In this document: piece by piece, positions 374-43,300 of the stretch
How the letters are laid out: the number at the start of each line of letters is the position of its first letter
How positions within the stretch are numbered: position 1 is the first letter of the stretch
DNA from: Bolinopsis microptera
Taxonomy: Eukaryota > Ctenophora > Tentaculata > Lobata > Bolinopsidae
Direction: 5' to 3'
NCBI RefSeq assembly: GCF_026151205.1
Contig: NC_087083.1
Span: 3,114,536 to 3,178,535 of the forward strand
Length of the DNA stretch: 64,000 nucleotides
Made by a program: the position numbers and the translations under genes
The notes under the pieces: generated by a model
What the model was told of the DNA's origin: nothing
The model's input: only the letters and a program-made list of their open reading frames with translations
The model's database searches: none

Positions 374-3300
374 TATGGACACTGTATCAGTTTGTTATTT
401 TGACATTACTTTTTATAATGAGCTAAACTCTCCAGAATATACCGGTGGGGAGTATGTATCAGTTTGTTATTTTAACATTACTTTTTATAATGACCTGAAC
501 TCTCCAGAATATACCGGTGGGGAGTATGTATTAGTTTGTTATTTTAACATTACTTTTTATAATGACCTGAACTCTCCAGAATATACCGGTGGGGGGTATG
601 GACACTGTATCAGTTTGTTATTTTGACATTACTTTTTATAATGACCTGAACTCTCCAGAATATACCGGTGGGGGGTATGGACACTGTATCAGTTTGTTAT
701 TTTGACATTACTTTTTATAATGACCTAAACTCTCCAGAATATACCGGTGGGGAGTACACTGTATTAGTTTGTTATTTTAACATTGCTTTTTATAATGACC
801 TGAACTCTCCAGAATATACCGGTGGGGGGTATGGACACTGTATCAGTTTGTTATTTTAACATTACTTTTTATAATGACCTAAACTCTCCAGAATATACCG
901 GTGGGGAGTACACTGTATTAGTTTGTTATTTTAACATTACTTTTTATAATGACCTAAACTCTCCAGAATATACCGGTGGGGAGTATGTATTAGTTTGTTA
1001 TTTTGACATTACTTTTTATAATGACCTGAACTCTCCAGAATATACCGGTGGGGGGTATGGACACTGTATCAGTTTGTTATTTTGACATTACTTTTTATAA
1101 TGACCTGAACTCTCCAGAATATACCGGTGGGGGGTATGGACACTGTATCAGTTTGTTATTTTAACATTACTTTTTATAATGAGCTAAACTCTCCAGAATA
1201 TACCGGTGGGGAGTACACTGTATTAGTTTGTTATTTTAACATTACTTTTTATAATGACCTGAACTCTCCAGAATATACCGGTGGGGGGTATGGACACTGT
1301 ATCAGTTTGTTATTTTGACATTACTTTTTATAATGACCTGAACTCTCCAGAATATACCGGTGGGGGGTATGGACACTGTATCAGTTTGTTATTTTAACAT
1401 TAGTTTTTATAATGACCTAAACTCTCCAGAATATACCGGTGGGGAGTACACTGTATTAGTTTGTTATTTTAACATTACTTTTTATGATGACCTAAACTCT
1501 CCAGAATATACCGGTGGGGGGTATGTATCAGTTTGTTATTTTAACATTACTTTTTATAATGACCTAAACTCTCCAGAATATACCGGTGGGGAGTATGTAT
1601 TAGTTTGTTATTTTGACATTACTTTTTATAATGACCTAAACTCTCCAGAATATACCGGTGGGGAGTTTGTTATTTTAACATTACTTTTTATAATGACCTA
1701 AACTCTCCAGAATATACCGGTGGGGAGTACACTGTATCAGTTTGTTATTTTAACATTACTTTTTATAATGACCTAAATCTCCAGAATATACCGGTGGGGG
1801 GTATGTATCAGTTTGTTATTTTAACATTACTTTTTATAATGACCTAAACTCTCCAGAATATACCGGTGGGGAGTACACTGTATTAGTTTGTTATTTTAAC
1901 ATTACTTTTTATAATGACCTAAACTCTCCAGAATATACCGGTGGGGGGTATGTATCAGTTTGTTATTTTAACATTACTTTTTATAATGACCTAAACTCTC
2001 CAGAATATACCGGTGGGGGGTATGTATTAGTTTGTTATTTTGACATTACTTTTTATAATGACCTAAACTCTCCAGAATATACCGGTGGGGAGTTTGTTAT
2101 TTTAACATTACTTTTTATAATGACCTAAATCTCCAGAATATACCGGTGGGGGGTATGTATCAGTTTGTTATTTTAACATTACTTTTTATAATGACCTAAA
2201 CTCTCCAGAATATACCGGTGGGGAGTATGTATTAGTTTGTTATTTTGACATTACTTTTTATAATGACCTAAACTCTCCAGAATATACCGGTGGGGAGTTT
2301 GTTATTTTAACATTACTTTTTATAATGACCTAAATCTCCAGAATATACCGGTGGGGGGTATGTATCAGTTTGTTATTTTAACATTACTTTTTATAATGAC
2401 CTAAACTCTCCAGAATATACCGGTGGGGGGTATGGACACTGTATCAGTTTGTTATTTTAACATTACTTTTTATAATGAGCTAAACTCTCCAGAATATACC
2501 GGTGGGGAGTACACTGTATTAGTTTGTTATTTTGACATTACTTTTTATAATGACCTGAACTCTCCAGAATATACCGGTGGGGGGTATGGACACTGTATCA
2601 GTTTGTTATTTTGACATTACTTTTTATAATGACCTGAACTCTCCAGAATATACCGGTGGGGGGTATGGACACTGTATCAGTTTGTTATTTTAACATTACT
2701 TTTTATAATGACCTAAACTCTCCAGAATATACCGGTGGGGAGTATGTATTAGTTTGTTATTTTGACATTACTTTTTATAATGACCTAAACTCTCCAGAAT
2801 ATACCGGTGGGGAGTTTGTTATTTTAACATTACTTTTTATAATGACCTAAACTCTCCAGAATATACCGGTGGGGAGTACACTGTATCAGTTTGTTATTTT
2901 AACATTACTTTTTATAATGACCTAAATCTCCAGAATATACCGGTGGGGGGTATGTATCAGTTTGTTATTTTAACATTACTTTTTATAATGACCTAAACTC
3001 TCCAGAATATACCGGTGGGGAGTACACTGTATTAGTTTGTTATTTTAACATTACTTTTTATAATGACCTAAACTCTCCAGAATATACCGGTGGGGGGTAT
3101 GGACACTGTATTAGTTTGTTATTTTAACATTACTTTTTATAATGACCTAAACTCTCCAGAATATACCGGTGGGGAGTACACTGTATCAGTTTGTTATTTT
3201 AACATTACTTTTTATAATGACCTAAACTCTCCAGAATATACCGGTGGGGAGTACACTGTATCAGTTTGTTATTTTAACATTACTTTTTATAATGACCTAA

Positions 3301-6300
3301 ACTCTCCAGAATATACCGGTGGGGGGTACACTGTATCAGTTTGTTATTTTAACATTACTTTTTATAATGACCTAAACTCTCCAGAATATACCGGTGGGGA
3401 GTACACTGTATTAGTTTGTTATTTTAACATTACTTTTTATAATGACCTAAACTCTCCAGAATATACCGGTGGGGAGTACACTGTATCAGTTTGTTATTTT
3501 AACATTACTTTTTATAATGACCTAAACTCTCCAGAATATACCGGTGGGGAGTACACTGTATCAGTTTGTTATTTTAACATTACTTTTTATAATGACCTAA
3601 ACTCTCCAGAATATACCGGTGGGGAGTACACTGTATTAGTTTGTTATTTTAACATTACTTTTTATAATAACCTAAACTCTCCAGAATATACCGGTGGGGA
3701 GTATGTATTAGTTTGTTATTTTAACATTACTTTTTATAATGACCTAAACTCTCCAGAATATACCGGTGGGGAGTACACTGTATCAGTTTGTTATTTTAAC
3801 ATTAGTTTTTATAATGACCTAAACTCTCCAGAATATACCGGTGGGGGGTACACTGTATCAGTTTGTTATTTTAACATTACTTTTTATAATGACCTAAACT
3901 CTCCAGAATATACCGGTGGGGGGTACACTGTATCAGTTTGTTATTTTAACATTACTTTTTATAATGACCTAAACTCTCCAGAATATACCGGTGGGGGGTA
4001 CACTGTATCAGTTTGTTATTTTAACATTACTTTTTATAATGACCTAAACTCTCCAGAATATACCGGTGGGGAGTACACTGTATTAGTTTGTTATTTTAAC
4101 ATTACTTTTTATAATGACCTAAACTCTCCAGAATATACCGGTGGGGAGTACACTGTATCAGTTTGTTATTTTAACATTACTTTTTATAATGACCTAAACT
4201 CTCCAGAATATACCGGTGGGGAGTACACTGTATCAGTTTGTTATTTTAACATTACTTTTTATAATGACCTAAACTCTCCAGAATATACCGGTGGGGAGTA
4301 TACTGTATCAGTTTGTTATTTTAACATTACTTTTTATAATGACCTAAACTCTCCAGAATATACCGGTGGGGAGTACACTGTATCAGTTTGTTATTTTAAC
4401 ATTACTTTTTATAATGACCTAAACTCTCCAGAATATACCGGTGGGGAGTATGTATTAGTTTGTTATTTTAACATTACTTTTTATAATGAGCTAAACTCTC
4501 CAGAATATACCGGTGGGGAGTACACTGTATCAGTTTGTTATTTTAACATTACTTTTTATAATGAGCTAAACTCTCCAGAATATACCGGTGGGGAGTACAC
4601 TGTATTAGTTTGTTATTTTAACATTACTTTTTATAATGACCTAAACTCTCCAGAATATACCGGTGGGGAGTACACTGTATTAGTTTGTTATTTTAACATT
4701 ACTTTTTATAATGACCTAAACTCTCCAGAATATACCGGTGGGGAGTATGTATTAGTTTGTTATTTTAACATTACTTTTTATAATGACCTAAACTCTCCAG
4801 AATATACCGGTGGGGAGTACACTGTATCAGTTTGTTATTTTAACATTACTTTTTATAATGACCTAAACTCTCCAGAATATACCGGTGGGGAGTACACTGT
4901 ATCAGTTTGTTATTTTAACATTACTTTTTATAATGACCTAAACTCTCCAGAATATACCGGTGGGGAGTATGTATTAGTTTGTTATTTTAACATTACTTTT
5001 TATAATGACCTGAACTCTCCAGAATATACCGGTGGGGAGTACACTGTATCAGTTTGTTATTTTAACATTACTTTTTATAATGACCTAAACTCTCCAGAAT
5101 ATACCGGTGGGGAGTACACTGTATTAGTTTGTTATTTTAACATTACTTTTTATAATGACCTAAACTCTCCAGAATATACCGGTGGGGAGTACACTGTATC
5201 AGTTTGTTATTTTAACATTACTTTTTATAATGACCTAAACTCTCCAGAATATACCGGTGGGGAGTACACTGTATTAGTTTGTTATTTTAACATTACTTTT
5301 TATAATGACCTAAACTCTCCAGAATATACCGGTGGGGAGTATGTATTAGTTTGTTATTTTAACATTACTTTTTATAATGACCTAAACTCTCCAGAATATA
5401 CCGGTGGGGAGTACACTGTATCAGTTTGTTATTTTAACATTACTTTTTATAATGACCTAAACTCTCCAGAATATACCGGTGGGGAGTACACTGTATCAGT
5501 TTGTTATTTTAACATTACTTTTTATAATGACCTAAACTCTCCAGAATATACCGGTGGGGAGTACACTGTATCAGATTGTTATTTTAACATTACTTTTTAT
5601 AATGACCTAAACTCTCCAGAATATACCGGTGGGGAGTACACTGTATCAGTTTGTTATTTTAACATTACTTTTTATAATGACCTAAACTCTCCAGAATATA
5701 CCGGTGGGGGGTACACTGTATTAGTTTGTTATTTTAACATTACTTTTTATAATGACCTAAACTCTCCAGAATATACCGGTGGGGAGTACACTGTATCAGT
5801 TTGTTATTTTAACATTACTTTTTATAATGACCTGAACTCTCCAGAATATACCGGTGGGGAGTATGGACACTGTATCAGATTGTTATTTTAACATTACTTT
5901 TTATAATGACCTAAACTTTCCAGAATATACCGGTGGGGAGTACACTGTATTAGTTTGTTATTTTAACATTACTTTTTATAATGACCTAAACTCTCCAGAA
6001 TATACCGGTGGGGAGTACACTGTATTAGTTTGTTATTTTAACATTACTTTTTATAATGACCTAAACTCTCCAGAATATACCGGTGGGGAGTACACTGTAT
6101 CAGTTTGTTATTTTAACATTACTTTTTATAATGACCTAAACTCTCCAGAATATACCGGTGGGGAGTACACTGTATTAGTTTGTTATTTTAACATTACTTT
6201 TTATAATGACCTAAACTCTCCAGAATATACCGGTGCGGAGTACACTGTATCAGTTTGTTATTTTAACATTACTTTTTATAATGACCTAAACTCTCCAGAA

Positions 6301-9300
6301 TATACCGGTGGGGAATACACTGTATTAGTTTGTTATTTTAACATTACTTTTTATAATGACCTAAACTCTCCAGAATATACCGGTGGGGAGTATGTATTAG
6401 TTTGTTATTTTAACATTACTTTTTATAATGACCTAAACTCTCCAGAATATACCGGTGGGGAGTACACTGTATCAGTTTGTTATTTTAACATTACTTTTTA
6501 TAATGACCTAAACTCTCCAGAATATACCGGTGGGGAGTATGTATCAGTTTGTTATTTTAACATTGCTTTTTATAATGACCTAAACTCTCCAGAATATACC
6601 GGTGGGGAGTACACTGTATCAGTTTGTTATTTTAACATTGCTTTTTATAATGACCTAAACTCTCCAGAATATACCGGTGGGGAGTACACTGTATCAGTTT
6701 GTTATTTTAACATTGCTTTTTATAATGACCTAAACTCTCCAGAATATACCGGTGGGGAGTACACTGTATCAGTTTGTTATTTTAACATTACTTTTTATAA
6801 TGACCTGAACTCTCCAGAATATACCGGTGGGGAGTACACTGTATCAGTTTGTTATTTTAACATTACTTTTTATAATGACCTGAACTCTCCAGAATATACC
6901 AGTGGGGAGTACACTGTATCAGTTTGTTATTTTAACATTACTTTTTATAATGACCTAAACTCTCCAGAATATACCGGTGGGGAGTACACTGTATCAGTTT
7001 GTTATTTTAACATTACTTTTTATAATGACCTGAACTCTCCAGAATATACCGGTGGGGAGTACACTGTATCAGTTTGTTATTTTAACATTACTTTTTATAA
7101 TGACCTAAACTCTCCAGAATATACCGGTGGGGAGTACACTGTATCAGTTTGTTATTTTAACATTACTTTTTATAATGACCTAAACTCTCCAGAATATACC
7201 GGTGGGGAGTACACTGTATTAGTTTGTTATTTTAACATTACTTTATATAATGACCTAAACTCTCCAGAATATACCGGTGGGGAGTACACTGTATTAGTTT
7301 GTTATTTTAACATTACTTTTTATAATGACCTAAACTCTCCAGAATATACCGGTGGGGAGTACACTGTATTAGTTTGTTATTTTAACATTACTTTTTATAA
7401 TGACCTAAACTCTCCAGAATATACCGGTGGGGGGTATGTATTAGTTTGTTATTTTAACATTACTTTTTATAATGACCTAAACTCTCCAGAATATACCGGT
7501 GGGGAGTACACTGTATCAGATTGTTATTTTAACATTACTTTTTATAATGACCTAAACTCTCCAGAATATACCGGTGGGGGGTATGTATTAGTTTGTTATT
7601 TTAACATTACTTTTTATAATGACCTAAACTCTCCAGAATATACCGGTGGGGAGTACACTGTATTAGTTTGTTATTTTAACATTACTTTTTATAATGACCT
7701 AAACTCTCCAGAATATACCGGTGGGGAGTACACTGTATCAGTTTGTTATTTTAACATTACTTTTTATAATGAGCTAAACTCTCCAGAATATACCGGTGGG
7801 GAGTACACTGTATTAGTTTGTTATTTTAACATTACTTTTTATAATGACCTAAACTCTCCAGAATATACCGGTGGGGAGTATGGACACTGTATCAGTTTGT
7901 TATTTTAACATTACTTTTTATAATGACCTAAACTCTCCAGAATATACCGGTGGGGAGTACACTGTATCAGTTTGTTATTTTAACATTACTTTTTATAATG
8001 ACCTAAACTCTCCAGAATATACCGGTGGGGAGTATTAGTTTGTTATTTTAACATTACTTTTTATAATGACCTAAACTCTCCAGAATATACCGGTGGGGAG
8101 TACACTGTATTAGTTTGTTATTTTAACATTACTTTTTATAATGACCTAAACTCTCCAGAATATACCGGTGGGGAGTACACTGTATCAGTTTGTTATTTTA
8201 ACATTACTTTTTATAATGACCTAAACTCTCCAGAATATACCGGTGGGGAGTATGGACACTGTATTAGATTGTTATTTTAACATTACTTTTTATAATGACC
8301 TAAACTCTCCAGAATATACCGGTGGGGAGTACACTGTATCAGTTTGTTATTTTAACATTACTTTTTATAATGACCTAAACTCTCCAGAATATACCGGTGG
8401 GGAGTACACTGTATTAGTTTGTTATTTTAACATTACTTTTTATAATGACCTAAACTCTCCAGAATATACCGGTGGGGAGTACACTGTATTAGTTTGTTAT
8501 TTTAACATTACTTTTTATAATGACCTAAACTCTCCAGAATATACCGGTGGGGAGTACACTGTATCAGTTTGTTATTTTAACATTACTTTTTATAATGAGC
8601 TAAACTCTCCAGAATATACCGGTGGGGAGTACACTGTATCAGTTTGTTATTTTAACATTACTTTTTATAATGACCTACACTCTCCAGAATATACCGGTGG
8701 GGAGTATGGACACTGTATCAGTTTGTTATTTTAACATTACTTTTTATAATGACCTAAACTCTCCAGAATATACCGGTGGGGAGTATGTATTAGTTTGTTA
8801 TTTTAACATTACTTTTTATAATGACCTAAACTCTCCAGAATATACCGGTGGGGAGTATGTATTAGTTTGTTATTTTAACATTACTTTTTATAATGACCTA
8901 AACTCTCCAGAATATACCGGTGGGGAGTACACTGTATTAGTTTGTTATTTTAACATTACTTTTTATAATGACCTAAACTCTCCAGAATATACCGGTGGGG
9001 AGTACATTGTATCAGTTTGTTATTTTAACCTTACTTTTTATAATGATCTAAACTCTCCAGAATATACCGGTGGGGAGTACACTGTATCAGTTTGTTATTT
9101 TAACATTACTTTTTATAATGAGCTAAACTCTCCAGAATATACCGGTGGGGAGTACACTGTATTAGTTTGTTATTTTAACATTACTTTTTATAATGACCTG
9201 AATCTCCAGAATATACCGGTGGGGAGTACACTGTATCAGATTGTTATTTTAACATTACTTTTTATAATGACCTAAACTCTCCAGAATATACCGGTGGGGA

Positions 9301-11868: not shown

Positions 11869-12576
11869 TATGGCGGCCGAGATGGCTCACCAAAATTTTC
11901 ACTGAAAATTTTGAATTAAAAAATTAATCATACAATTAATCGCAAAATAAAAACGATTTTGAATTTGTTTTGTAAAATGATTTTAAAATTTAAATAAAAA
12001 ACGATTTTCATATTGAAATTGAAAACGATTCTCATTTTTAAAACGATTTTTTTTTGTTTTATTGAAAATCTTTTCAAAATAGTACATACATCAATGTAAT
12101 TGCATGAAAATAACACGGTCAAAAAGTGATTTCTATGTACTATAATGACGGGAAACCAGAACGTAGTTCGTGCAAAAATTACACCTACAAAATATGGTCC
12201 CTGACAAAACATTTCATACAATCAACACATATAAATGTAAGATATATAGTAATAGAGATGATTGTGCATTAATAAAATACAGCGTGCATAAAATATCATA
12301 ATGTTAATAATTTGTTAACTTTTTAATGAAATAGATTATATCATACAATACTTTTAAAAACCCAACCCACAACCCAACCCACCCCTAACCCCTTAAATAG
12401 TTTGGATCGGTTATTTTAGATTAGAGAATTGGCATTGGGAGAAATGAGATGCATCTAATCATTATCAGACAGGTAGAATTCAGCGTGACTATCGTTTGGA
12501 TCTGTGGGTAGCATTTCCGACCATAGGTGATCCTTAAGTTTGGCCTTGAAGATATCAGGACAGCTATGGTCTCTTA

Positions 12577-15500
12577 TTAACTTATTTCGAGAGGAAGTTT
12601 ATTCCAGAGCAGATGTGTCCGATAAAAGAATGATTTCTTAAGGAGACTGCTATTACACTGTGTTTGAACAAGAGTCGTTACATAACTTAGGCTGTCATGG
12701 TGACATGATCTTAAGCGTGTGCTTCCTTTGTATAGTTGTAAGTAATTAGGAAGCTCTTGTGTGCATACACCATTGACTATTTTGTGAAACAAGGTCAGGT
12801 CATTCAATTCAAACCTCTTGCTGAGAGGAAGGATTTTCAATTGATGACATTTGTAAGTATAGTTTTCAAAGGACTGATAGCTTGTGAATTCCTCATCAAA
12901 AATCCACTTAATACACCTTTTTTGAAAAGCATCCATCTTATCTAGTTGTGTTTTATTAAATGGACGCCAGATTTGGGAACAGTGTTCAAATTGACTTCTA
13001 ACAAGTGCAAGGTATAAATTTCTTCTTCGTCTCTCATCTTGGACAAATGAGCAAGTGCGTTTCAGCAGCCCAAATTTTTGGTTAGCTTTGGACAATATTT
13101 TAGTTATGTGTTCTTCAAAACGAAAGCCCTGATTTATAACGACTCCAAGATCTGTTTCCGTACTGGTGTAATCTAAGGGAGTATTACCGAGCAAATATTG
13201 AAATCTGATAAATGGAATAGGTAATATCCTACTGCTGAATTTCTTTCCAGGAATAGAGAGGACTTTACACTTTGATGGATGGAATCGCATTTTATTTTCT
13301 ATGCTCCAAGAATTAAGTTCATTTATGTTATTCTGAAGTGTGCAATAATCGTTGTATGATTTAATAGGACTCCATATTTTCGTGTCATCAGCATAAAGTA
13401 CCAAATTTGTGCCTGAACTTAATCTCATGGGAAGATCGTTTATGAATAAGACAAATAGAATGGGACCTAGGACGGAGCCTTGAGGAACTCCAGACAAAAC
13501 AGGTTTGATCTCTGAATGTCTACCATCAACTAAAACACATTGTTCCCGTTCACTAAGATAGTTGGTTAGGAATTTGAGTAGCCTTCCTTCAATATTAAAG
13601 ACGAGTTTAAGTTTCTTAAGAATAAGATCATGATTTACAGAATCAAAGGCTTTAGCAAAATCAAAGCAAATGATGTCTACACTTATAGTCGAACAGTCAT
13701 TGAGGGATAGCGTGACACTGTCAATAAAGTTAATCATATTTGTGGTACAAGATCTGTCTCCAAGAAATCCATGCTGTCTATCATCAAGAAGATGCATTGT
13801 TTTATTCAAGAGTTCCTGTTTAATAAGGCGTTCAAATGTTTTCATTATAAGACTAGTTAGGGAAATCGGCCGATAATTCTCAATGTCCTCCTTACTACCC
13901 TTCTTGTGAACCGGAACTACGTGAGCCAGCTTCCATTCAGTTGGAATAATACCGGAGTTATATGATATCTCAAATAAAATTGAAAGTGGGCAAGCGAGAC
14001 TACCAGCACAGTTCTTCAGTATCTTACCATGGATACCGTCAGGGCCGCAAGCTTTGTTAGAATTAATGTTCCTTAAGAGATGTTTTATATTCTCTGCACA
14101 GAAAGTTAAGTCGAATTCAGTATCACTTCTCCAATCAATATCAATATCATACTTAGATTCGTCAGAAAATTGTTCTGAGAAATACTGATTGAACATATTT
14201 GCTTTGTCTAATGGAGATTCTCTGTATGTTTCTCTAAGGTACATCCTATCCGGTATTCTTGAATTCTTTGAAGAGGATTTTACATGCGACCAGAATTTCT
14301 TTGAGATCAATGCAGGGTCATCATCGTTATATAGATTATCGTTCATCTTCTGATCAGATAGATTTTTGAACTGTGTTCTTAGTGAGCAAAACTTAAAATA
14401 ATCCTTTTGTTGGCCGGTTAGTTTCCACTTTTCATGAGCTCTTTTTTTCTTCAAGTATGCCTCATGGGCCTCTGAGTCAAACCAGGGATTTCTATATGCT
14501 AACTTTAAAGTAATAGTTGGGATATGCTTTGAGATACTTTTCGATATTACAGACTTTAAGGCAAGCCAACAATATTCAGGATCTCCTAGCTTTAAAAACA
14601 TAGCATTCCAGTCAATAGAATTCAAGTCTTCGTTAATGGCCGTCCAGTTTGCCTTCTTAAAGTTGAGAATCTTTCTTTTAGGACATTTAGAATAAGTGAT
14701 TTTTGTAGCAACTTTAAAAGCTATTGGATAATGGTCAGATTTGCAAGCACCGTGACCCTTCAATACCGTAAGATCTCTTACTAAATTTTTACAATTACTC
14801 AAAAGAAGGTCTAGTATGTTACCCTTAACATGTGTAGGACTACTTATACATTGATCTAGATCAAAGTTATGGAATGTTGTAATGAAGTCCTCTTCAATTA
14901 AACTAGAAGGTGTAACAATTCCGTCCTCAGAAAACCAATCTACTCCATTGAGATTAAAATCACCAACGATGAAAAGTTTTTTAGGGCGTTTGCTTGAGTA
15001 GAAAGACTTGATTGTACTGGCAATACTTTCATGGTTTACTGTTCCTAAAGTTCCGACTCTGTAAACCACACAAAAAATGTATTTACTTTCACCTATGTTT
15101 ATTTCAATAGCGGCCATTTCGGACCCCTTACGTACAGACAGTCTTTTGATTTCAGCTTGAATATCAGATCTGATTGCTATCAAGACTCCTCCACCATTTT
15201 TCCTATATTTTTTCGGATTGTTATCATCAGGTGGATGTGATACTTTTGAGCGATCATTTCTAAATACTTCATAGTTAGAGCTTTGAATGACCTCTCTATC
15301 CATTACAGAGTTTTTAAGCCAAGTCTCTGTAAGCAGAATAACGTCAGGATGTGAATCTTCAATATGTGCATTAAGTTCATATATTTTGGATTTATCAAGA
15401 TGAGGTTGCTTACTGTTAAGTTGAGAAAACGGTATCAAGCCTTGAACATTCTGATAATAGACTGATATGTGATTAGGGCCGGGATTAAGCATACTAGGGT

Positions 15501-16038
15501 TTGATATTGCAATAAGCAAGAAGTTTAAGGTCAATAGAAGTAAAATCGACATACACAGAACTTGCCTAGATGTGCTAGTTACTGCACCAAACACTATATT
15601 AGTGGCAGTCAGCCTTTCAACTCGGTATCTCCGACTGAGTCTTTGGTACTGAGTAAAGATGAAGTTCTTAATTGCAAAACCAAAGATATACAGGTATGCA
15701 CAATTAATATGAGACACAAGTGGGAAGGCCTTACTGGTATTAAAGTAGAATCTACTGGGATGAATAAACCTATCAATCTCATTGGACTCTTTCGAGCTTG
15801 TTAAAATCATTCCAATTAGACAAAACATGATGAACAAGTGCAGAACATAGATACCAATGTTAGATGGTCTAGAATTGAAGATAAGTGCATCTTCAAATAT
15901 CCTAGTCCTGATATCCGATCCAAACCTAACCCCCCTACCCCAAGCAGAACTATCCACTTGACAGGAATTCTTTGGTGCTCTAGAATTACAAAAGCAGCCG
16001 ATTCGCATCCTGTAAAGTGTTAGATCGATCATTGTCAA
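12577..16038 (-). CDS. LINE ORF2: AP endonuclease and reverse transcriptase
   Basis: The protein has 1153 residues and nicks target DNA and reverse-transcribes the LINE RNA. An endonuclease of the exonuclease/endonuclease/phosphatase fold covers about 190-445: YYQNVQGL with the Asn near 196, LLTETWL with Glu near 238, GDFNLNGVDW near 359-368, and SDHYP near 435. Reverse transcriptase covers about 655-930: YRPISLTS near 722, DFAKAFDSVNHD near 793, SGVPQGSVLGP near 849, and the catalytic YADD near 882-885. A C-terminal thumb-like region follows. The first ~185 residues are unusual, with two hydrophobic stretches (about 61-80 and 159-178). The true start may lie downstream, because LNPGPN just before the endonuclease is a common CR1-type boundary. 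There is no internal stop. Confidence 0.9.
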   Translation of the reverse strand: MTMIDLTLYRMRIGCFCNSRAPKNSCQVDSSAWGRGVRFGSDIRTRIFEDALIFNSRPSNIGIYVLHLFIMFCLIGMILTSSKESNEIDRFIHPSRFYFNTSKAFPLVSHINCAYLYIFGFAIKNFIFTQYQRLSRRYRVERLTATNIVFGAVTSTSRQVLCMSILLLLTLNFLLIAISNPSMLNPGPNHISVYYQNVQGLIPFSQLNSKQPHLDKSKIYELNAHIEDSHPDVILLTETWLKNSVMDREVIQSSNYEVFRNDRSKVSHPPDDNNPKKYRKNGGGVLIAIRSDIQAEIKRLSVRKGSEMAAIEINIGESKYIFCVVYRVGTLGTVNHESIASTIKSFYSSKRPKKLFIVGDFNLNGVDWFSEDGIVTPSSLIEEDFITTFHNFDLDQCISSPTHVKGNILDLLLSNCKNLVRDLTVLKGHGACKSDHYPIAFKVATKITYSKCPKRKILNFKKANWTAINEDLNSIDWNAMFLKLGDPEYCWLALKSVISKSISKHIPTITLKLAYRNPWFDSEAHEAYLKKKRAHEKWKLTGQQKDYFKFCSLRTQFKNLSDQKMNDNLYNDDDPALISKKFWSHVKSSSKNSRIPDRMYLRETYRESPLDKANMFNQYFSEQFSDESKYDIDIDWRSDTEFDLTFCAENIKHLLRNINSNKACGPDGIHGKILKNCAGSLACPLSILFEISYNSGIIPTEWKLAHVVPVHKKGSKEDIENYRPISLTSLIMKTFERLIKQELLNKTMHLLDDRQHGFLGDRSCTTNMINFIDSVTLSLNDCSTISVDIICFDFAKAFDSVNHDLILKKLKLVFNIEGRLLKFLTNYLSEREQCVLVDGRHSEIKPVLSGVPQGSVLGPILFVLFINDLPMRLSSGTNLVLYADDTKIWSPIKSYNDYCTLQNNINELNSWSIENKMRFHPSKCKVLSIPGKKFSSRILPIPFIRFQYLLGNTPLDYTSTETDLGVVINQGFRFEEHITKILSKANQKFGLLKRTCSFVQDERRRRNLYLALVRSQFEHCSQIWRPFNKTQLDKMDAFQKRCIKWIFDEEFTSYQSFENYTYKCHQLKILPLSKRFELNDLTLFHKIVNGVCTQELPNYLQLYKGSTRLRSCHHDSLSYVTTLVQTQCNSSLLKKSFFYRTHLLWNKLPLEIS

Positions 16039-16217
16039 AAATTTAATTCAAATGTAATTTAAAATATGCATACAGCCTACCAGTGTGAACCATTGGGTTG
16101 CACCCTGGCAATTAAAAATCATTTGTGTTAATGAAAACATATTTCAAAATTGTTCAACCCTGAATTGACTCCATTACCGCAGCACAGTAGGTATCAAATT
16201 TTTAATAGAATTGCGGT

Positions 16218-17555
16218 TTAGAAACCAAGAGGATTGAACCATTTTGAATGAATAATAAATATGTAGAATCTTGCAAGAACACCCATGCCTTTATTATTTG
16301 GGTGAATATCAAAACGCTGTTTCTTAGTGTCAAAATGCGGGAAAAGTCTCGTGTTGATGCAGCCCCTAGCATCCAAGAAAGCAGGAAAGATATCTAAGAA
16401 ATAATGCCTATACCGGGAGCACATATTGTAAATCAGATTATTCATTCGAATAACATTTCTCTCAGTAAATTTACAACCATTAGGATTAATTGGAGGAACA
16501 GATTGAAACCATACTTTTGCAGTTGGAAGTATCAACTTTATGGAACTCATTAAACTAGATACCGCACTTTTAAGATGTGCTATTCCATTATCACAGTACC
16601 GTATATCATTAGTACCAACAGACACAAATAATTTAACAACTTCTAAATTAGGGTTATCTTTCACGAATTTCTCGATATCTCTCTTGACCTTATCAAGTTT
16701 ACTGCCTCCAACGGCGATGTTCTTAACTACTTGCTTATTCTTTCCTAACAATTTTTCATCTAATCTAGCAGCAAAAGAGTCCCCAGCAACAAGAACAATC
16801 TTCTGCTTTTTCGTGACTTGTTCATTGACTTGGGATAAATCCACTTGATCCTCTTCAGGAGGTTTAATCTTACGGAACGAGAGACTAAAACGTACTTGTT
16901 CATTTTCACCGACTTTACCAGAATAAACTGCATGTCTCATTTTAGATTGAGCACCAGGTTTCATAATGTTCATGGTTTTATCAGTGGCTGGTAGCACATG
17001 ATCAGGACTATCGCTGTTTTTATTACTATCAAGAACGATTGAAAGTTCTCGTGGTGCACCTAGTGAAACAGTACAAATTGAGCTAGTCTGAGATATGAGT
17101 GGCTCGTTATCACGATGGAGTCGGAGAGTAGACTTGCTCGATGCATAACGAGTTATCAGGCAGGAGTCCATATCACCAGATGTTGAAGGGTGATTGTTAA
17201 CCACTTCCATGAGCTTGCAAAAATTGGGGTAATCGTTTATAGGAATTGGTTTGTTCATAACATGACCATAGTTATAAGAATGAGTGGTCGGACTAAGCCA
17301 CTGAGTAGTGACTGGACGACCCCTCTGTTTTAAGTTAAGAGAGTCAAGCTCTTTTCGGAGGTCATCACAAAGGGTTTTGTCCAAGTTAAGGTCGTTAACA
17401 TGTTCAACAAGGGATACAATGTCATCAGACGAGGCAGTAGATTCTGCAGCAGATTCAGAAGCAACGTCGAGGGTTAGGGCTTCCAACATTGCACGTTTTT
17501 CAGCTAGAGTGGCTGTTTTGAGAAGATCGACGAACACTTTGGGTAATTCTTGCAT
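16218..17555 (-). CDS. LINE ORF1: AlkB-like 2OG-Fe(II) dioxygenase domain fused to SGNH hydrolase
   Basis: The protein has 445 residues and three parts. Residues 1-85 are acidic and helical. Residues ~95-230 carry the pattern of AlkB-family 2-oxoglutarate/Fe(II) dioxygenases: LRLHRDNE (His147, Asp149 as the HxD pair), MRHAVYSG (His208 as the third iron ligand), and RFSLSFR (Arg222-x5-Arg228, the AlkB signature for 2-oxoglutarate binding). Residues ~252-435 are an SGNH/GDSL hydrolase: VAGDSF (Ser260), AVGGSK, VGTNDI (Asn316), and DIHP (Asp416, His418). SGNH esterases are known in CR1-type ORF1 proteins; the dioxygenase next to it is what stands out. A plausible role is RNA or nucleic-acid dealkylation in the RNP, but this is inference. 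All catalytic positions appear intact. Confidence 0.8.
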   Translation of the reverse strand: MQELPKVFVDLLKTATLAEKRAMLEALTLDVASESAAESTASSDDIVSLVEHVNDLNLDKTLCDDLRKELDSLNLKQRGRPVTTQWLSPTTHSYNYGHVMNKPIPINDYPNFCKLMEVVNNHPSTSGDMDSCLITRYASSKSTLRLHRDNEPLISQTSSICTVSLGAPRELSIVLDSNKNSDSPDHVLPATDKTMNIMKPGAQSKMRHAVYSGKVGENEQVRFSLSFRKIKPPEEDQVDLSQVNEQVTKKQKIVLVAGDSFAARLDEKLLGKNKQVVKNIAVGGSKLDKVKRDIEKFVKDNPNLEVVKLFVSVGTNDIRYCDNGIAHLKSAVSSLMSSIKLILPTAKVWFQSVPPINPNGCKFTERNVIRMNNLIYNMCSRYRHYFLDIFPAFLDARGCINTRLFPHFDTKKQRFDIHPNNKGMGVLARFYIFIIHSKWFNPLGF

Positions 17556-18844
17556 TGTTTGTCGAAGTAGGACGCCAGGTGATCAAGGGGCAGATCAGGA
17601 GTACAGCAGTGTCGGCAGGACAACTATCAGTGATCAAAGACCTGGGAAATAAAAGGGCCGAGCAGATCATGTAAATAAAAGGATCAATGACAAAAGAATG
17701 AGAGTGAAGGGAGATCTATGTAGAGTAATAGTTAGTAATGAAAACTATCAATCAAAATGTAAGTGAGCTAGAAAATTGGAAATTGAATAAATGAAGTTAG
17801 AAAACTGACCTTGTTAAGATTTCAGAGATGTCCCAGCCAAGCTGGGACAGAGAATAAAAGACTGCCGTACACCGCTACACTGCCTCACTACCCCCGTCTC
17901 AACCCGGGACACCGGCTGACTTTACTCCAGCGACATTCTGTCCACGAGTGGACCCATCGTCTTAGCCATAATCAATTGAAATCTCAAATTATTTGTTATA
18001 TAGTAGTGTTGAAAGTATTAAAACTTTTGAGTTTGATTTTGAAAACGATATTGATTTTGATTTTGATTTTGATAACGATATTGGTTTTGATTTTAAAAAC
18101 GATATTGATTTTGATTTTAAAAACACCCATCCCAAAATAGCTGAAATCCAGATAGTTAGATGGGCGTGGCCCCTGTGAGTAGCCTGAGTGGGTTGGGAGG
18201 TCGAAACTTGATTTTTCTGATGGTTTGGGACAGGTACTAACTATTTAAACCACTAAACTTGTTCCAAATACCCCGGAACATAAATCCCATACGGCTAATT
18301 AGCTAGCTGAGCCATCTCGGCCGCCACCAAAAAAAAAAAATTTCAAAATCAAAATGGTTTTCAAAATCAAAATCAATATCGTTTTCGAAATCAAAATCAA
18401 TATCGTTTTCGAAATCAAAATCAATATCGTTTTTAAAATCAAAATCAATATCGTTTTTAAAATCAAAATCAATATCGTTTTAAAAATCAAAACCAATATC
18501 GTTATCAAAATCAAAATCAAAATCGTTTTCAAAATCAAACTCAAAATCGTTTTAAAAATGAGAATCGTTTTCAATTTCAATATGAAAATCGTTTTTTATT
18601 TAAATTTTAAAATCATTTTACAAATCAAATTCAAAATCGTTTTTATTTTGCGATTAATTGTATGATTAATTTTTTAATTCAAAATTTTCAGTGAAAATTT
18701 TGGTGAGCCATCTCGGCCGCCATAGTCGTGGTCCAAATGCATGCCTTACCTAGCTGGCACTCCAATCCTTGTGTGCGGCGCTCTTTTAAGCTTCCTGCAC
18801 GTACGTGAGAGTAGCAAACAATAAACTAGCAAACTAGGTAAATA

Positions 18845-30351: not shown

Positions 30352-31979
30352 ATTTGAATTGTAGTTGACGAAGTGAGAGTCTCCACTCAGTGTGTTAAAA
30401 CATAATTCTTTGTCGACGTTTCGGCTACATGCCTTTGTCATAGACAGGACGTATTGATAACTTACATAGCTGCAAAGTTACAATGTTAAAATAATCTATT
30501 AATATTACGAAATATTACAACAACAAATACCATCTTGAAACCCATACAATTAACAAGTGACAACGCGAATCAACCACGTACTCATCACATAAAACCACAT
30601 ACCCCAAATACAATCGGAAAAAATCGCGAAACAACGATCACAGAGGTTAGATTTTTCCTTATTTGTTAAACCAACCAGCCAGGACATATTCCTAAATTAT
30701 GCCTCTGCTCACCCTCGTAGAACGATTCTGAACTCAGCCAAAAATGATATCAGAAGGGCTATCAATAATAGCTCCACACCTGAACTACAAGATCTCAGTA
30801 TCAACAGAATAGCAGATATGCTAAAGAAGAATAGTTTCCCTCCTAATATTGTCAAGAAACTTATTCAAGAAACACAGAATTCACTGGATAAACAAGATAC
30901 GCCTAAAAAGAACTCAAAAATAGCTTACTTATCATTACCTTATATAAATGAACAGACGTGTCGAAAAGTCTACTATACTCTAAGGAATCAAAACCTCTTG
31001 GATTCCACCAGGGTAACATTCACATCAGGACAACGTCTCATGGAAGCATTAACAAGATCTAGCCTACAGCAAACAAAATATAAAAAACAAAGTGACAGCA
31101 AATGCTACCAGTGCGATAAATCCTGCATGATCAAAAATATTTGCTACCAATTAATATGCCAGATATGTAATAAGTCCTACATTGGGGAAACTCGTAGGTT
31201 TAAAAGAAGTAGAGCCTGGGAACATTACAAATCAGTAAGGGATGGCAACAAATCTACGGCCATGGGAAAGCACTACCTAGAGGAGCATGCAGACATTTCA
31301 TTGCCAAACATACCGTTTCGGTTTATAGTTCGCAAAAGATGCAAAGATTATGTGGACCGTCAATTGTGGCAGTCGGTTCTAATAAAACGTGAAAACCCAG
31401 AAATAAACACTCATTTGTCTGAGTCCGTAAATGAAGGTGATTGGACAAAATATACTTGGAAGTTAATGTAATATTGAACTTATTAACCTAAATAATTTTT
31501 GATTACTCAGTTTTATGAAGTCCGAGCTATCTTGGTAAAATGTTTGTAGTACTATGAGGTTGTTCACGGCTTGATGCGGTGTGGATTCTTTTAGCCGTTA
31601 TATAATGTTTCTTTTGAAAAAAAACAAAAAAAAACAAAAAACAAATTTGTGATCGTTTGTTTCGCGATTTTTTCCGATTGTATTTGGGTATGTGGTTTTA
31701 TGTGATGAGTACGTGGTTGATTCGCGTTGTCACTTGTTAATTGTATGGGATTCAAGATGTTATTTGTTGTTGTAATATTTCGTAATATTAATAGATTATT
31801 TTAACATTGTAACTTTGCAGCTATGTAAGTTATCAATACGTCCTGTCTATGACAAAGGCATGTAGCCGAAAAGTCGACAAAGAATTATGTTTTAACACAC
31901 TGAGTGGAGACTCTCACTTCGTCAACTACAATTCAAATTAAATGATTGACCCACTCATAAGAGCAAAAAAAGATTACCA
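30352..31979 (+). mobile_element. Penelope-like element 1, truncated, with inverted terminal repeats
   Basis: It is flanked by 12-bp target duplications gatttgcaaata (30340-30351 and 31980-31991). The locus B paralogue at 55915-55950 lacks it. About 290 bp at each end are inverted copies, including the block ttgtcgacgtttcggctaca. The core encodes the C-terminal part of the Penelope polyprotein. Confidence 0.85.
30644..31471 (+). CDS. Penelope-like polyprotein, C-terminal part with GIY-YIG endonuclease
   Basis: The open frame is 5'-truncated and enters at RLDFSLFVKPTSQDIFLNYA inside the end of the reverse transcriptase region. The rest matches residues 50-324 of the copy at 37254-38228. A Cys-rich segment (KCYQCDKSC) precedes the GIY-YIG-type nuclease: YQLICQICNKSYIGET with RRFKRSR and WEH after it. 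Penelope-like enzymes normally couple RT to this nuclease. Here the RT catalytic core is absent, so this copy is not autonomous. It has an Arg in place of Gly in GETRRF. Confidence 0.85.
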   Translation, partial: RLDFSLFVKPTSQDIFLNYASAHPRRTILNSAKNDIRRAINNSSTPELQDLSINRIADMLKKNSFPPNIVKKLIQETQNSLDKQDTPKKNSKIAYLSLPYINEQTCRKVYYTLRNQNLLDSTRVTFTSGQRLMEALTRSSLQQTKYKKQSDSKCYQCDKSCMIKNICYQLICQICNKSYIGETRRFKRSRAWEHYKSVRDGNKSTAMGKHYLEEHADISLPNIPFRFIVRKRCKDYVDRQLWQSVLIKRENPEINTHLSESVNEGDWTKYTWKLM

Positions 31980-37253: not shown

Positions 37254-38228
37254 ATGCAACACAAGGGAGATGAAGACACAGTACTATTGCTGTTTAACTA
37301 CATTAACTCGTTGAACAGGGATATACAGTTCACATATGAGTGCTCCAAAGATTGTGTTGCATTTTTGGACCTGAACATCTTTATGAATACAGTGGACAAG
37401 AGGTTAGATTTTTCCTTATTTGTTAAACCAACCAGCCAGGACATATTCCTAAATTATGCCTCTGCTCACCCTCGTAGAACGATTCTGAACTCAGCCAAAA
37501 ATGAGATCAGAAGGGCTATCAATAACAGCTCCACACCTGAACTACAAGATCTCAGTATCAACAGAATAGCAGATATGCTAAAGAAGAATAGTTTCCCTCC
37601 TAATATTGTCAAGAAACTTATTCGAGAAACACAGAATACACTGGAAAAACAAAATGCGCCTAAAAAGAACTCAAAAATAGCTTACTTATCATTACCTTAT
37701 ATAAATGAACAGACGTGTCGAAAAGTCTACTATACCCTAAGAAATCAAAACCTCTTGGATTCCACCAGGGTAACATTCACATCAGGACAACGTCTCATGG
37801 AAGCTTTAACAAGATCTAGCCTACAGCAAACAAAATGCAATAAACAAAGTGACAGCAAATGCTATCAGTGCGATAAATCCTGCATGATCAAAAACATTTG
37901 CTACCAATTAATATGCCAAATATGTAATAAGTCCTACATTGGGGAAACTGGTAGGTTTAAAAGAAGTAGAGCCTGGGAACACTACAAATCAGTAAGGGAT
38001 GGCAACAAATCTACGGCCATGGGGAAGCACTACCTAGAGGATTATGCAGACATTTCAATGCCAAACATACCGTTTCGGTTTATAGTTCGAAAAAGATGTA
38101 AAGACTATGTGGACCGTCAATTGTGGCAGTCGGTTCTAATAAAACGTGAAAACCCAGAAATAAATACTCAATTGTCTGAGCCCGTAAATGAAGGTGATTG
38201 GATAAAATATACTTGGAAGTTAATGTAA
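37254..38228 (+). CDS. Penelope-like polyprotein, 5'-truncated, GIY-YIG endonuclease intact
   Basis: Open for 324 codons. Residues 1-60 are the end of the reverse transcriptase (CVAFLDLNIFM then LDFSLFVKPT). Residues 100-190 are the linker. Residues 202-300 hold the Cys-rich segment (KCYQCDKSC) and the GIY-YIG nuclease: YQLICQICNKSYIGETGRF, KRSRAWEH, NKSTAMGKHYLE. The RT catalytic YxDD region is missing, so the copy cannot move by itself. The first Met is only where the frame opens inside the dimer junction and is not a natural start. Confidence 0.85.
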   Translation: MQHKGDEDTVLLLFNYINSLNRDIQFTYECSKDCVAFLDLNIFMNTVDKRLDFSLFVKPTSQDIFLNYASAHPRRTILNSAKNEIRRAINNSSTPELQDLSINRIADMLKKNSFPPNIVKKLIRETQNTLEKQNAPKKNSKIAYLSLPYINEQTCRKVYYTLRNQNLLDSTRVTFTSGQRLMEALTRSSLQQTKCNKQSDSKCYQCDKSCMIKNICYQLICQICNKSYIGETGRFKRSRAWEHYKSVRDGNKSTAMGKHYLEDYADISMPNIPFRFIVRKRCKDYVDRQLWQSVLIKRENPEINTQLSEPVNEGDWIKYTWKLM

Positions 38229-39840: not shown

Positions 39841-40346
39841 CAGGCATTAAGACTCATCGAAAGTAGTTCAGCAGGTATATTTATGTTCAAAACATTCTAA
39901 TTTAATGTTAAATATGACAGGAATAAGAAATAGTTATGTGAAGGTTTTTAAGAAATTTGCGCAAAATACGCGCCAGCATGTTGTACGAAATTCGGTAAAA
40001 AACCCAAAATCGCCATATTCAGGTGCCTTAAAAACCGTGTTAAAATTGTGTTAGAGATCTGAAAATTTGCAGGGCGTCTAGACGTTGACCAAATCGACTG
40101 CAAAAAATGTTTCAAGTTTCAGGAGCATCGGGAAATGGGTTTTCTAGAACCCCTGTTTTACGACAGATTGTCGGGACATATACAGATATACAGATATACA
40201 TATATATTCAGGGATAGACGCTTTGCCAGTAAATTATAGGCTATATTCAGGTGTCAGTAGATTCAGAAGCTTTAAAGATACAGCCATCTCGGACCACAGG
40301 TCTTGAAGATAATTGTTTAGAATTTAGTTTACATTATATTAAAAAG

Positions 40347-43300
40347 CCCAAAATCAAGATGGGATCAACACTGTGTGCTGTGCTATTTGTTTTCGCTGTT
40401 TGTTCTTGGAATGTTAGGGGCTTGGGTAGTCCAGACACTGCGGTTAATGATAAAACTCGGTCTGAACGACTTTTGAAGAGGGAGTTACTGGGTAATGACT
40501 GCAAAAGGTACGGTATGGACATTGTGGGACTACAAGAAACTAAGTGCACTAATCAGGTTGATATCATACTTCACAACAACTACAGACTGTTAATTTTTGA
40601 TCAGAAAGAACAATGTCATGGGGGTATTGGATTTGTTATTAGCCCTAAACTGCAACCTTTCATCACAACTTTCAAACAGATCTCTGATAGAGTTGGGTAT
40701 ATTGATTTTTGTTTTACTCTCAAGGGTGGTAGTAATAAGAATTTCAGAATCATCAACAGTTATGGTCTCACATCTCTTCGTGCTCAACAACACCCTGACA
40801 AACTGTCTCAGTTCTATAGAGATTTACACAATGTATCCTCTACTCCATCAAAATGGGAAATGTTCCACTGCGGAGATTTCAACTCAAAGCTGGGTAAACG
40901 AACTAGGGTTGATGAACAATTAGGTCTGGAAGGTTTGATAGGTAGACATGGTATTGGGACTAGAAATGAAAATGGGGAGCATTTGCTTGAATTTATGGTT
41001 AAAGAAGACCTAACAGCATGCAATACTTTGTTTGATCATCCAAGTAGGCACAAACTAACTTGGACTGGTGAACACAGGACTAAGAGAAATACTCCTATAT
41101 ACGCTCAACTTGACTATGTGCTTTGCAGGAGGAGGTCTACGGTTTTAATAAAGGACAGCAGATCATACGGAGGCGCTGAGTTACGATCTGATCACAAACC
41201 TGTTGTAACTCGATTAACGCTGAAAAATCATGTTCTCATTCACAAAACCAAAAAATCAGATAGCACTCAGTTTGACTGTTCAACTCTCTACAGTGATAAA
41301 GAACTCAGACAGAAATATCAAAGTGCGATTGCTGAAAGATTATCGGGTAAAACTTATCCAGATGACCCAAATGAGAAAATGAATGAACTTTTTAGTGACA
41401 TACGTGCGTGTGCTGAAGAAACTATACCACTGAAAGGGAAATCCTCTAAACAAAATTTCTCCAGTGATCTAACAGTAGCTTCATTAGTTGCTAAAAAGCG
41501 TGATCAGACTCTGAAGATCAAATCAGCCCCAAATGGTAGTGATGTTAGTGGAGATAGGAGAGAAGTTAGAAAGATTCAGAATAGCATTTCTAAGAGACTT
41601 GTGCAAATAAATAACATGAAGGCTGACGCTCTAGCGGAAGAAATAAATAACACTGACGATGCTAGAAAGATGTTTGAAGCTTCAAGATCTTTAGCTGGAA
41701 TAAGAAAGTCGGGTAACATAGTGGTCAATGATATCAACAACAACCCTATTGGTACTGATTTAGGGAAAGCAAACACAGCGAAATCTTTCTTCGAAAAACA
41801 ACTAACAGAAGGAGTTGAAGCTGGCCTGCAACCTTTTACCTGCGATCCAAAACCACTTGATAACCCCATCACACCAGTTGAAGTTAAACTTGCTGCAAGT
41901 AAACTCAAATCAAACCGTGCCAGTGGTCCAGATAATCTCCAGAATGAGCTGATAAAGTACGCCCATCCAATCACTTTTGAGAAGTATGCTGAGGCAATTA
42001 ACGAGTCATTTAGTGGGAACAAATACATAAGTTCGAAAGGACAAGGTATTGTGACTCCTCTACAGAAGCCCGGTAAACCTAAGGGTCCCCTCACAAGCCT
42101 TAGACCACTTACACTGTTAAACGGATCGAGGAAGATGCTCACTCAAATTGCCTTAAAACGGGTTGAGAGTAGAATTGACAACTACACCATGCCATGGCAG
42201 AGTGCTTACAAGAGAGGTAGGAGCTGCTCTGACATTGTGTGGGCTCAGAGAATGCTCATATCTGTTGTAATGAGGAAGAAATGGACATTTAGCAAAATGG
42301 GTATTGATATGAGTAGAGCTTTTGATACCGTGAAAAGGGACACTATCATCAATGTTTTGAAAGATGCTGGTTGTTCGGAGGACGACATTCGTTTAGTTCA
42401 ATACCTTCTATCGAATACTCTCCTTAGAGTTCGTGTTAACTCCTCACTGTCGGAAGAGTTTGAAAGTTTACTCGGAGCCTTTCAAGGTGACAGTTTATCT
42501 GGAAAGCTATTCACACTTATTCTTGCAGCAGCCTTACACCACCTCAGAGCTGTATCTGGGAGACCAAACCCACCAGTATCAGAACTAGGTTTTCCAACTG
42601 AGTGGGAATATTCAGACGATTGTGACTTTGCTGACGAGGACATCGAGAAACTGAGAATTTTCCTTCCTACAGTGAAGGAGATTCTCAAAGACTGGAACCT
42701 CCAAGTAAATGAAAGTAAAACTGAATTCAGTACCTTCTACCTAGCGACAAAATCTGATAAAGATACAAACGGTCAGCCATTAGCTAATAACGAACCATGG
42801 AGAAGTAACAAGTCACTAGGTTCCTTACTGTGTACTGAGAAGGACATTCAAAGAAGAAGAATCCTAGCTGAGATTGCTTTTAAGAACTTTGAAAAAGTTT
42901 GGCTGTCTGGTAAGAAAATATCCCTTGAAAGAAAGCTGAGGTTATACGATGCTCAAGTTGTATCTGTATTGATTTACAACTCAAATAGTTGGAGTCCTAA
43001 GAAAGCAACCATGGAGAAAATGGACACACTCCATCGTAGACACCTCAGGTCCATTTTAAACATCAAATGGCCTAAAGGTATGATAAGCAACAAAGCATTG
43101 TATGAAAGGTGCAAAGTTGAAAAGTTATCCAAGCGTATTGAACACCAGCGGTGGAAAATGTTTGGACACATTCTCAGGAGTATGGAGAACACCCCAGCCC
43201 AAACGGCTCTCTCATTTGCTATTGAATCAGATAATTTATTCATTGGAAGATTGGGGAGACCTAGAATGAACTTGTTATCGGTTTTAAGAAGTGATTTAAA

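Follow-up and report, generated by a model that had tools for sequence, protein, structure and literature searches.

ORF1 of a LINE retrotransposon in the ctenophore Bolinopsis microptera encodes an AlkB-like dioxygenase domain fused to an SGNH hydrolase-like domain, as profile matches confirm and as conservation in relatives bears out, and the same pairing is found again in other LINE ORF1s of this genome and, in reverse order, in a Helitron. The element lies in the window, by which we mean the whole stretch of DNA that was analysed (64,000 nucleotides, NC_087083.1, positions 3,114,536 to 3,178,535), and its fused ORF1 had been put forward in an initial annotation made from the letters of the DNA. 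We regard it as about an even bet (a probability of roughly 0.5) that the AlkB domain of the ORF1 protein demethylates the RNA of its own element in the ribonucleoprotein, before or during target-primed reverse transcription, and that the SGNH domain has a role at membranes or on an ester. The coordinates of the features are collected in Table 1.

Table 1. Features of the LINE and its surroundings (window positions) and of the Helitron
Feature	Position	Strand	Basis
Full-length LINE (~5.97 kb)	~12057-18022	minus	alignment to copy L059
ORF1, 445 aa, AlkB-SGNH fusion	16218-17555	minus	ORF translation and alignment
AlkB (2OG-Fe(II) oxygenase) domain, residues ~80-230	16866-17318	minus	PF13532, ALKBH3 profile, conservation
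H147/D149	17117-17109	minus	
H208	16934-16932	minus	
R222	16892-16890	minus	
R228	16874-16872	minus	
SGNH/GDSL hydrolase-like domain, residues ~250-445	16221-16808	minus	PF13472, 4c1b_A
ORF2	12577-16038	minus	open frame counted from TTG; endonuclease and reverse transcriptase
ORF2 AP-type endonuclease region, residues 222-440	14719-15375	minus	Pfam
ORF2 reverse transcriptase region, residues 712-928	13255-13905	minus	Pfam
182-nt inverted repeat around the LINE	arms 18543-18724 and 11869-12050	.	99% complementary
Helitron L071/L072	C10:16874300-16885300; 3388-aa frame at C10:16875843		Pfam scan

All residues that had been assigned to the two domains (H147, D149, H208, R222, R228, S260, G284, N316, D416 and H418) are found at the claimed positions in the ORF1 translation, and the plus strand of the same interval contains many stops. 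At the level of sequence the five-residue AlkB pattern is by itself weak evidence and it is homology that decides; the bare pattern H.D, H, R.....R with loose spacings arises in 230 of 5000 shuffles of the ORF1 protein. As a single sequence, ORF1 finds ALKBH3 among PDB sequences at E 0.0011-0.026 (phmmer), and the window AlkB domain, submitted by itself, reaches 43.6 bits for PF13532, the cut-off being 31.2. A profile built from 14 ORF1s, that of the window and 13 others which are 30-48% identical to it and several of which are near-identical among themselves, matches ALKBH3 at 2.8e-13, ALKBH2 at 2.3e-9 and the LINE ORF1 esterase 4c1b at 1.1e-9, and with a domain-only profile from nine of those ORF1s the values are 5.9e-14 for ALKBH3 and about 1e-4 for E. 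coli AlkB; the profile alignment spans ALKBH3 residues 92-231. The comparison with AlkB models that the annotation had proposed as a check thus gave matches to both PF13532 and ALKBH3, and by profile the closest solved proteins are ALKBH3, then ALKBH2 and then E. coli AlkB. One might nonetheless suppose that an esterase-type ORF1 of the ordinary kind shows the AlkB residues by chance, since the pattern is not rare and since PF13532 is absent from the Pfam scan of the full-length window ORF1 even at E 10 and is listed for five of the 14 whole ORF1s, leaving nine without it overall. When six whole relatives were scanned apart, L039, L041 and L043 matched PF13532 at 57-63 bits and L017, L046 and L044 were without a match. 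We would ascribe these misses to the speed filters of HMMER acting on long proteins of a diverged clade, because the window domain given alone clears the PF13532 cut-off. Indeed the profile matches rule out the chance arrangement, to which we assign next to no probability, and the purifying selection on the domain and the AlkB scores of other LINE ORF1s of the genome (both below) likewise stand against it.

The Fe(II)/2-oxoglutarate (2OG) residues H147, D149, H208, R222 and R228 occur without exception in all 14 ORF1s, and relatives therefore retain HxD, H and RxxxxxR, the loss of which the annotation had named as an argument against its proposal. A wider set of 54 rows consists of 53 ORFs or fragments and the window protein (the same copy as row L009), L001-L008 having been dropped as duplicates, and many of its rows are near-identical copies and hence not independent. 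Among the rows with a letter at the position concerned, H147 is kept in 47 of 48, D149 in 48 of 48, H208 in 50 of 50, R222 in 49 of 49 and R228 in 50 of 50, the exceptions in the set being fragment L056, where H147 is replaced by Y, and copy L031, where a small deletion removes R222. The Asn of the AlkB NxY motif is a 2OG contact. This motif reads TRY in the window, its Asn is replaced by T, S, I or L in the window's clade and its Tyr is Met in L046; Asn is retained in L065, L066, L068, L069, L070 and L077 as well as in the Helitron-type L071, L076 and L078. We treat NxY as a frequent rather than a defining feature of AlkB proteins, and the replaced Asn is what most cautions against assuming a textbook active site in the window's clade. 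Within RxxxxxR, all 21 aligned transposon AlkB domains have RxS, whereas three of three host domains have RxN. The host AlkB-type exons L073, L074 and L075, which we take from family features to be ALKBH2-like, ALKBH3-like and a third type, have NxY and carry RxNLTFR. Given the replaced Asn together with RxS, the 2OG pocket is not a textbook one, and the substrate could differ from that of ALKBH3. The common RxS hints at a shared transposon pool, and could also have arisen by convergence.

Counts of synonymous and nonsynonymous changes by the method of Nei and Gojobori indicate that the AlkB domain is under purifying selection. For the pair L039/L041 the dN/dS is 0.17 in AlkB (dS 0.77) and 0.10 in SGNH (dS 0.95), and for L017/L019 and L017/L021 it is 0.22 and 0.25 in AlkB and 0.07 and 0.09 in SGNH, with a laxer N-terminal region (0.70 and 0.39). 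The SGNH value for L044/L049 is 0.54. Between the window protein and L017 or L046 the changes are saturated, and very young pairs differ too little to be informative.

The window SGNH domain scores 48 bits against PF13472 (cut-off 32.9), and the SGNH profile matches the ZfL2-1 ORF1 esterase 4c1b_A at 1e-8. It resembles the esterase-type (type IV) ORF1 of ZfL2-1 (4c1b; PMC3905857, PMC4120745) in standing at the C-terminus of a LINE ORF1 and in being basic, with a pI of 9.3-10.0 across the 14-ORF1 alignment compared with the 10.8 given for ZfL2-1 in the available text of PMC3905857. The complete set of SGNH residues that had been claimed holds in part: Ser, Gly, Asn and His are kept, S260, G284, N316 and H418 (blocks I, II, III and V) being invariant in the 14-ORF1 alignment, but D416 stands two residues before the His (F-D-I-H) and thus off the canonical DxxH place, the usual catalytic Asp standing three residues before it, as D279/H282 of ZfL2-1 (described in the same text, PMC3905857). 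The Asp is also displaced in L017, L043 and L046, there is G-I-H and no Asp at the DxxH site in L039, L041 and L042, and DxxH is in place only in the L044/L049 family of this alignment. With the DxxH Asp out of place, hydrolase activity of the window SGNH domain is doubtful, and we do not claim it to be an active enzyme. Furthermore, H191 and S228 of ZfL2-1, which Schneider et al. regard as transposon-specific, are not kept and align, in a correspondence counted by hand on the printed alignment, with S312 (nearly invariant here) and Q351 (invariant here). The SGNH part of L043 also resembles the OSK domain of Oskar, at a score below the cut-off (20.8 bits vs 27).

A search of the genome (264.65 Mb in 232 contigs) with the ORF1 protein gave at least 103 matching stretches (95 of 791 candidates scored), and one with PF13532 gave at least 151 matches, host exons included (150 of 587 candidates scored), those listed all exceeding the cut-off. 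From the latter we chose eight multi-copy ORFs of different length (L063-L070). AlkB is present in all eight at 69-83 bits and is followed in all eight by a region that looks SGNH-like by eye; PF13472 is found in six at E up to 0.1, always under the cut-off (17-27 bits), and was not listed for L067 and L068 in that Pfam scan. The 14-ORF1 profile matches a profile of L063, L065 and L069 at E 5e-23 over 347 columns that cover both domains colinearly, and an SGNH profile (A3) matches that of L066 and L067 at 1.2e-9. A downstream LINE endonuclease is counted for seven of the eight: six of seven downstream ORFs tested have a Pfam endonuclease (over the cut-off in five and under it in L066), and the seventh, that of L068, has 88% identity with the one downstream of L070; no endonuclease was found in the 0.9 kb downstream of L064. 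Related LINEs with the same fusion, for which the annotation had suggested a search, are thus found in this genome. In L066 and L067 a zinc finger of PHD-like type lies close to the N-terminus, ahead of AlkB-SGNH (15-20 bits, below the cut-offs), and in L067 ORF2 begins with another zinc-finger-like stretch, likewise below Pfam cut-offs. Two scans of viral contigs and one of genome contigs confirmed no relative, and as these collections hold viruses and prokaryotes they have little bearing on animals; distant AlkB proteins turned up in ten records when phages were searched with the L041 AlkB domain.

Both domains also occur in the Helitron, the long frame of which has a PF13472 match of 27 bits (under the cut-off) at the start of the stretch read, continues with PF13532 (76.6 bits) and DUF6570 (52.7 bits), has Helitron_like_N (70.3 bits) and a PIF1 helicase (79.5 bits) further on, and contains proline-rich and repeat regions. 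The order is SGNH-like, then AlkB, then Rep and helicase, which is the reverse of the LINE ORF1 order. Two other long frames, L076 and L078, have AlkB domains closely similar to that of the Helitron, a likeness established over the AlkB domain. At least six PF13532 matches have open frames of more than 2,000 residues, and Helitron content is established for one of them.

A tree of 20 AlkB sequences, with a host ALKBH2-like domain as its root, unites the window's clade in one group (96.2/96) and places the Helitron copies weakly as sister to it (70.2/53), several deeper branches being poorly supported; with support of 70.2/53, the tree does not resolve whether LINEs and Helitron would go back to a single capture of AlkB. 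Trees of ORF1 and of the ORF2 endonuclease reject each other (AU p 6e-5 and 4e-70) in a test of seven families with short alignments in which a rate artefact is possible. ORF1 seems to have moved between LINE lineages, and exchange of ORF1 between lineages has been described for other ORF1 types by Metcalfe and Casane (PMC4120745, available text).

In the mechanism that we consider here, the ALKBH3-like Fe(II)/2-oxoglutarate dioxygenase domain would act on the RNA of the element within the ribonucleoprotein, and perhaps on first-strand cDNA as well, and would remove marks such as 1-methyladenine and 3-methylcytosine, which stall the reverse transcriptase in target-primed reverse transcription; the SGNH domain would tether or release the particle at membranes, or act on another ester. 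Catalysis, substrate, action in cis and the step at which AlkB matters are the parts that we infer. Most likely, as judged from sequence with regard to both activity and substrate, the ORF1 protein would demethylate single-stranded intermediates so that copying goes unblocked. ABH3 is described in a review as preferring ssDNA and mRNA and as acting on m1A and m3C (PMC11431407, in part), and the available text on OTTR states that m1A impedes the R2 LINE reverse transcriptase used there and that AlkB treatment removes m1A and m3C and raises the capture of most 3' tRNA halves (PMC12140624). It should also be mentioned that the AlkB effect on intact tRNAs is modest in that text, which counts against template cleaning, that a potyvirus given a plant AlkB domain gained no fitness from it and lost the domain, according to the portion available of PMC9249622, and that the demethylase ALKBH5 lowers retrotransposition of human L1 (PMC7873242, in part), both of which likewise count against the mechanism. 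A membrane or lipid function has been proposed for the esterase ORF1 (PMC3905857, available text), and the SGNH Asp, out of place in all families of the 14-ORF1 alignment but L044/L049, counts against a mechanism with two enzymes. The Helitron moves through DNA yet has both domains, which makes single-stranded nucleic acid the common denominator. From the recurrence of AlkB-SGNH it would seem that the nucleic acids of mobile elements may be protected by the elements themselves. We would go only tentatively, and at less than even odds, as far as to see AlkB and SGNH as a standard two-enzyme transposon cassette of the lineage that would serve one shared step, the demethylation of single strands and the placing of the particle; if so, eukaryotic transposons would have in it a protective kit of a general kind.

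The AlkB domain might on the other hand serve to escape silencing rather than to repair lesions, by erasing m6A from RNA or 6mA from DNA as regulatory marks of the host, a notion that we find unlikely though far from negligible. It is in agreement with the available account of an orchid Ty3/Gypsy AlkB that binds RNA, demethylates in vitro and was proposed to act against surveillance (PMC9289625), and evasion of a general control at the mRNA level would be consistent with the occurrence of AlkB in a Helitron as well as in LINEs. It is in poor agreement with the profile relatives, which are ALKBH3, ALKBH2 and AlkB with no ALKBH5 or FTO chain among the matches listed, and with the description, in the text available, that m6A promotes the mobility of human L1 and ALKBH5 suppresses it (PMC7873242). 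The annotation had left repair and countering of host methylation side by side; both are interpretations, and we favour the repair form.

Nor is catalysis the only use to which the domain could be put. Esterase-type ORF1 proteins are without a structured RNA-binding domain according to the available text of Schneider et al. (PMC3905857), and AlkB could fill that gap, even as a non-catalytic module for binding single strands in place of the missing domain. The replaced NxY Asn of the window's clade speaks for such a module, but mere binding would not need the iron and 2OG residues that are kept in all 14 ORF1s and nearly so in the wider set, and five of the eight other LINE ORF1s keep the NxY Asn (L065, L066, L068, L069 and L070); the conserved H147, D149, H208, R222 and R228 would favour catalysis over binding alone, and we hold the non-catalytic module to be rather improbable. 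Repair of alkylated DNA intermediates and not of RNA, be it first-strand cDNA, the displaced target strand or the Helitron single strand, appears similarly improbable to us, as the position of AlkB in ORF1 favours RNA and the ORF1 protein of LINEs normally acts with RNA, although DNA repair would account for the Helitron without invoking RNA and although the preference of ABH3 includes ssDNA as well as mRNA (PMC11431407, in part).

An esterase in LINE ORF1 and AlkB in an LTR retrotransposon are already known. The esterase is preceded here by AlkB, whereas in the esterase-type ORF1s of Schneider et al. that place is taken by coiled coils and, in many cases, an arginine-rich motif (PMC3905857, available text). 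Metcalfe and Casane, who treat five ORF1 types, do not use the word oxygenase in their main text (PMC4120745), and it is likewise absent from the main text on bdelloid LTR and Penelope-like elements with a GDSL ORF3 (PMC5408684), elements which, as partly available, resemble the present case in that GDSL/SGNH domains are shared between retroelement classes. The Phalaenopsis orchid Ty3/Gypsy element is alike in being a retrotransposon that encodes an AlkB-type 2OG dioxygenase, but it is an LTR element with an additional ORF in a plant host, no SGNH fusion is mentioned in the available part of that paper, and its AlkB is called a recent acquisition in the title (PMC9289625), whereas the domain is here spread over diverged LINE ORF1s and a Helitron. 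AlkB of plant RNA viruses likewise belongs to a mobile RNA replicon and lies within a larger protein, and RNA demethylation in vitro is reported for that of blackberry virus Y; these are not retroelements, however, and the portion available mentions no SGNH domain (PMC9249622), the comparison being one of descriptions and not of sequences. Three further papers treat AlkB, in their available parts, as host genes only (PMC11294593, PMC3750612, PMC10161547). In the open-access literature, as far as its texts were available, AlkB was thus found in the orchid Gypsy element and none was found in a LINE or Helitron, subscription journals, Repbase Reports and preprints lying outside this scope. Within these bounds we found no precedent for the AlkB-SGNH LINE ORF1, its recurrence, its PHD-like form or the Helitron with both domains, which is not to claim that they are unpublished.

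LINE ORF1 proteins are poorly understood. The esterase type has been called unique among them for its enzymatic function, and puzzling as it is without an RNA-binding domain (PMC3905857, available text), and a second enzyme-like domain, directed at nucleic acids and fused to the esterase, alters the picture of this type. It raises the question whether a LINE repairs or unmarks its own template: m1A-type marks impede reverse transcriptases, and AlkB beside a reverse transcriptase makes for a simple hypothesis. It may also be asked why the two domains, which occur together in a DNA transposon of the same genome as well, are needed together. Natural pairs of AlkB and reverse transcriptase could serve RNA sequencing, in which it is recommended to treat with AlkB ahead of cloning by an R2-type reverse transcriptase (PMC12140624, available text).

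The window LINE itself is 99.2% identical to copy L059 over 5,977 alignment columns. It shares its 5' start with L059 (the same copy as L002), L005 and L006, where the match is exact, and with L004, where the alignment shows it, L003 being broken there, and its 3' end, a boundary supported by L059 alone, is followed by an A-rich tail; the common ends and the identity to L059 make it a full-length and recent insertion. It thus has several copies, common ends and an A-rich tail, with no target-site duplication demonstrated, and its ORF2 contains an AP-type endonuclease and a reverse transcriptase with Pfam scores above the cut-offs (PF00078 107 bits, PF14529 39 bits, PF03372 32 bits). The element had been called intact, and both ends are indeed present, but an 8-nt insertion relative to L059 makes ORF2 stop early; in L059 the reverse transcriptase frame is itself interrupted. 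Between the two ORFs, at 16039-16217, RNA folding is unremarkable (z -1.21). The LINE seems to have landed inside a foldback or TIR-type repeat, the inverted arms of which flank it and have a short AT-rich unit repeated near them. Elsewhere in the window, a 1053-residue LINE-type frame at 40251-43412 has endonuclease and reverse transcriptase features by eye and gave no tblastn match to the window ORF2 at E 0.1, and the long open frames at 3090-9275 are built of a tandem repeat unit (CYFNITFYNDLNSPEYTGGEYTVSV...) and are probably satellite rather than genes. ORFs at 30818-31471 and 37254-38228 contain a GIY-YIG-like stretch and by eye resemble parts of Penelope-like elements.
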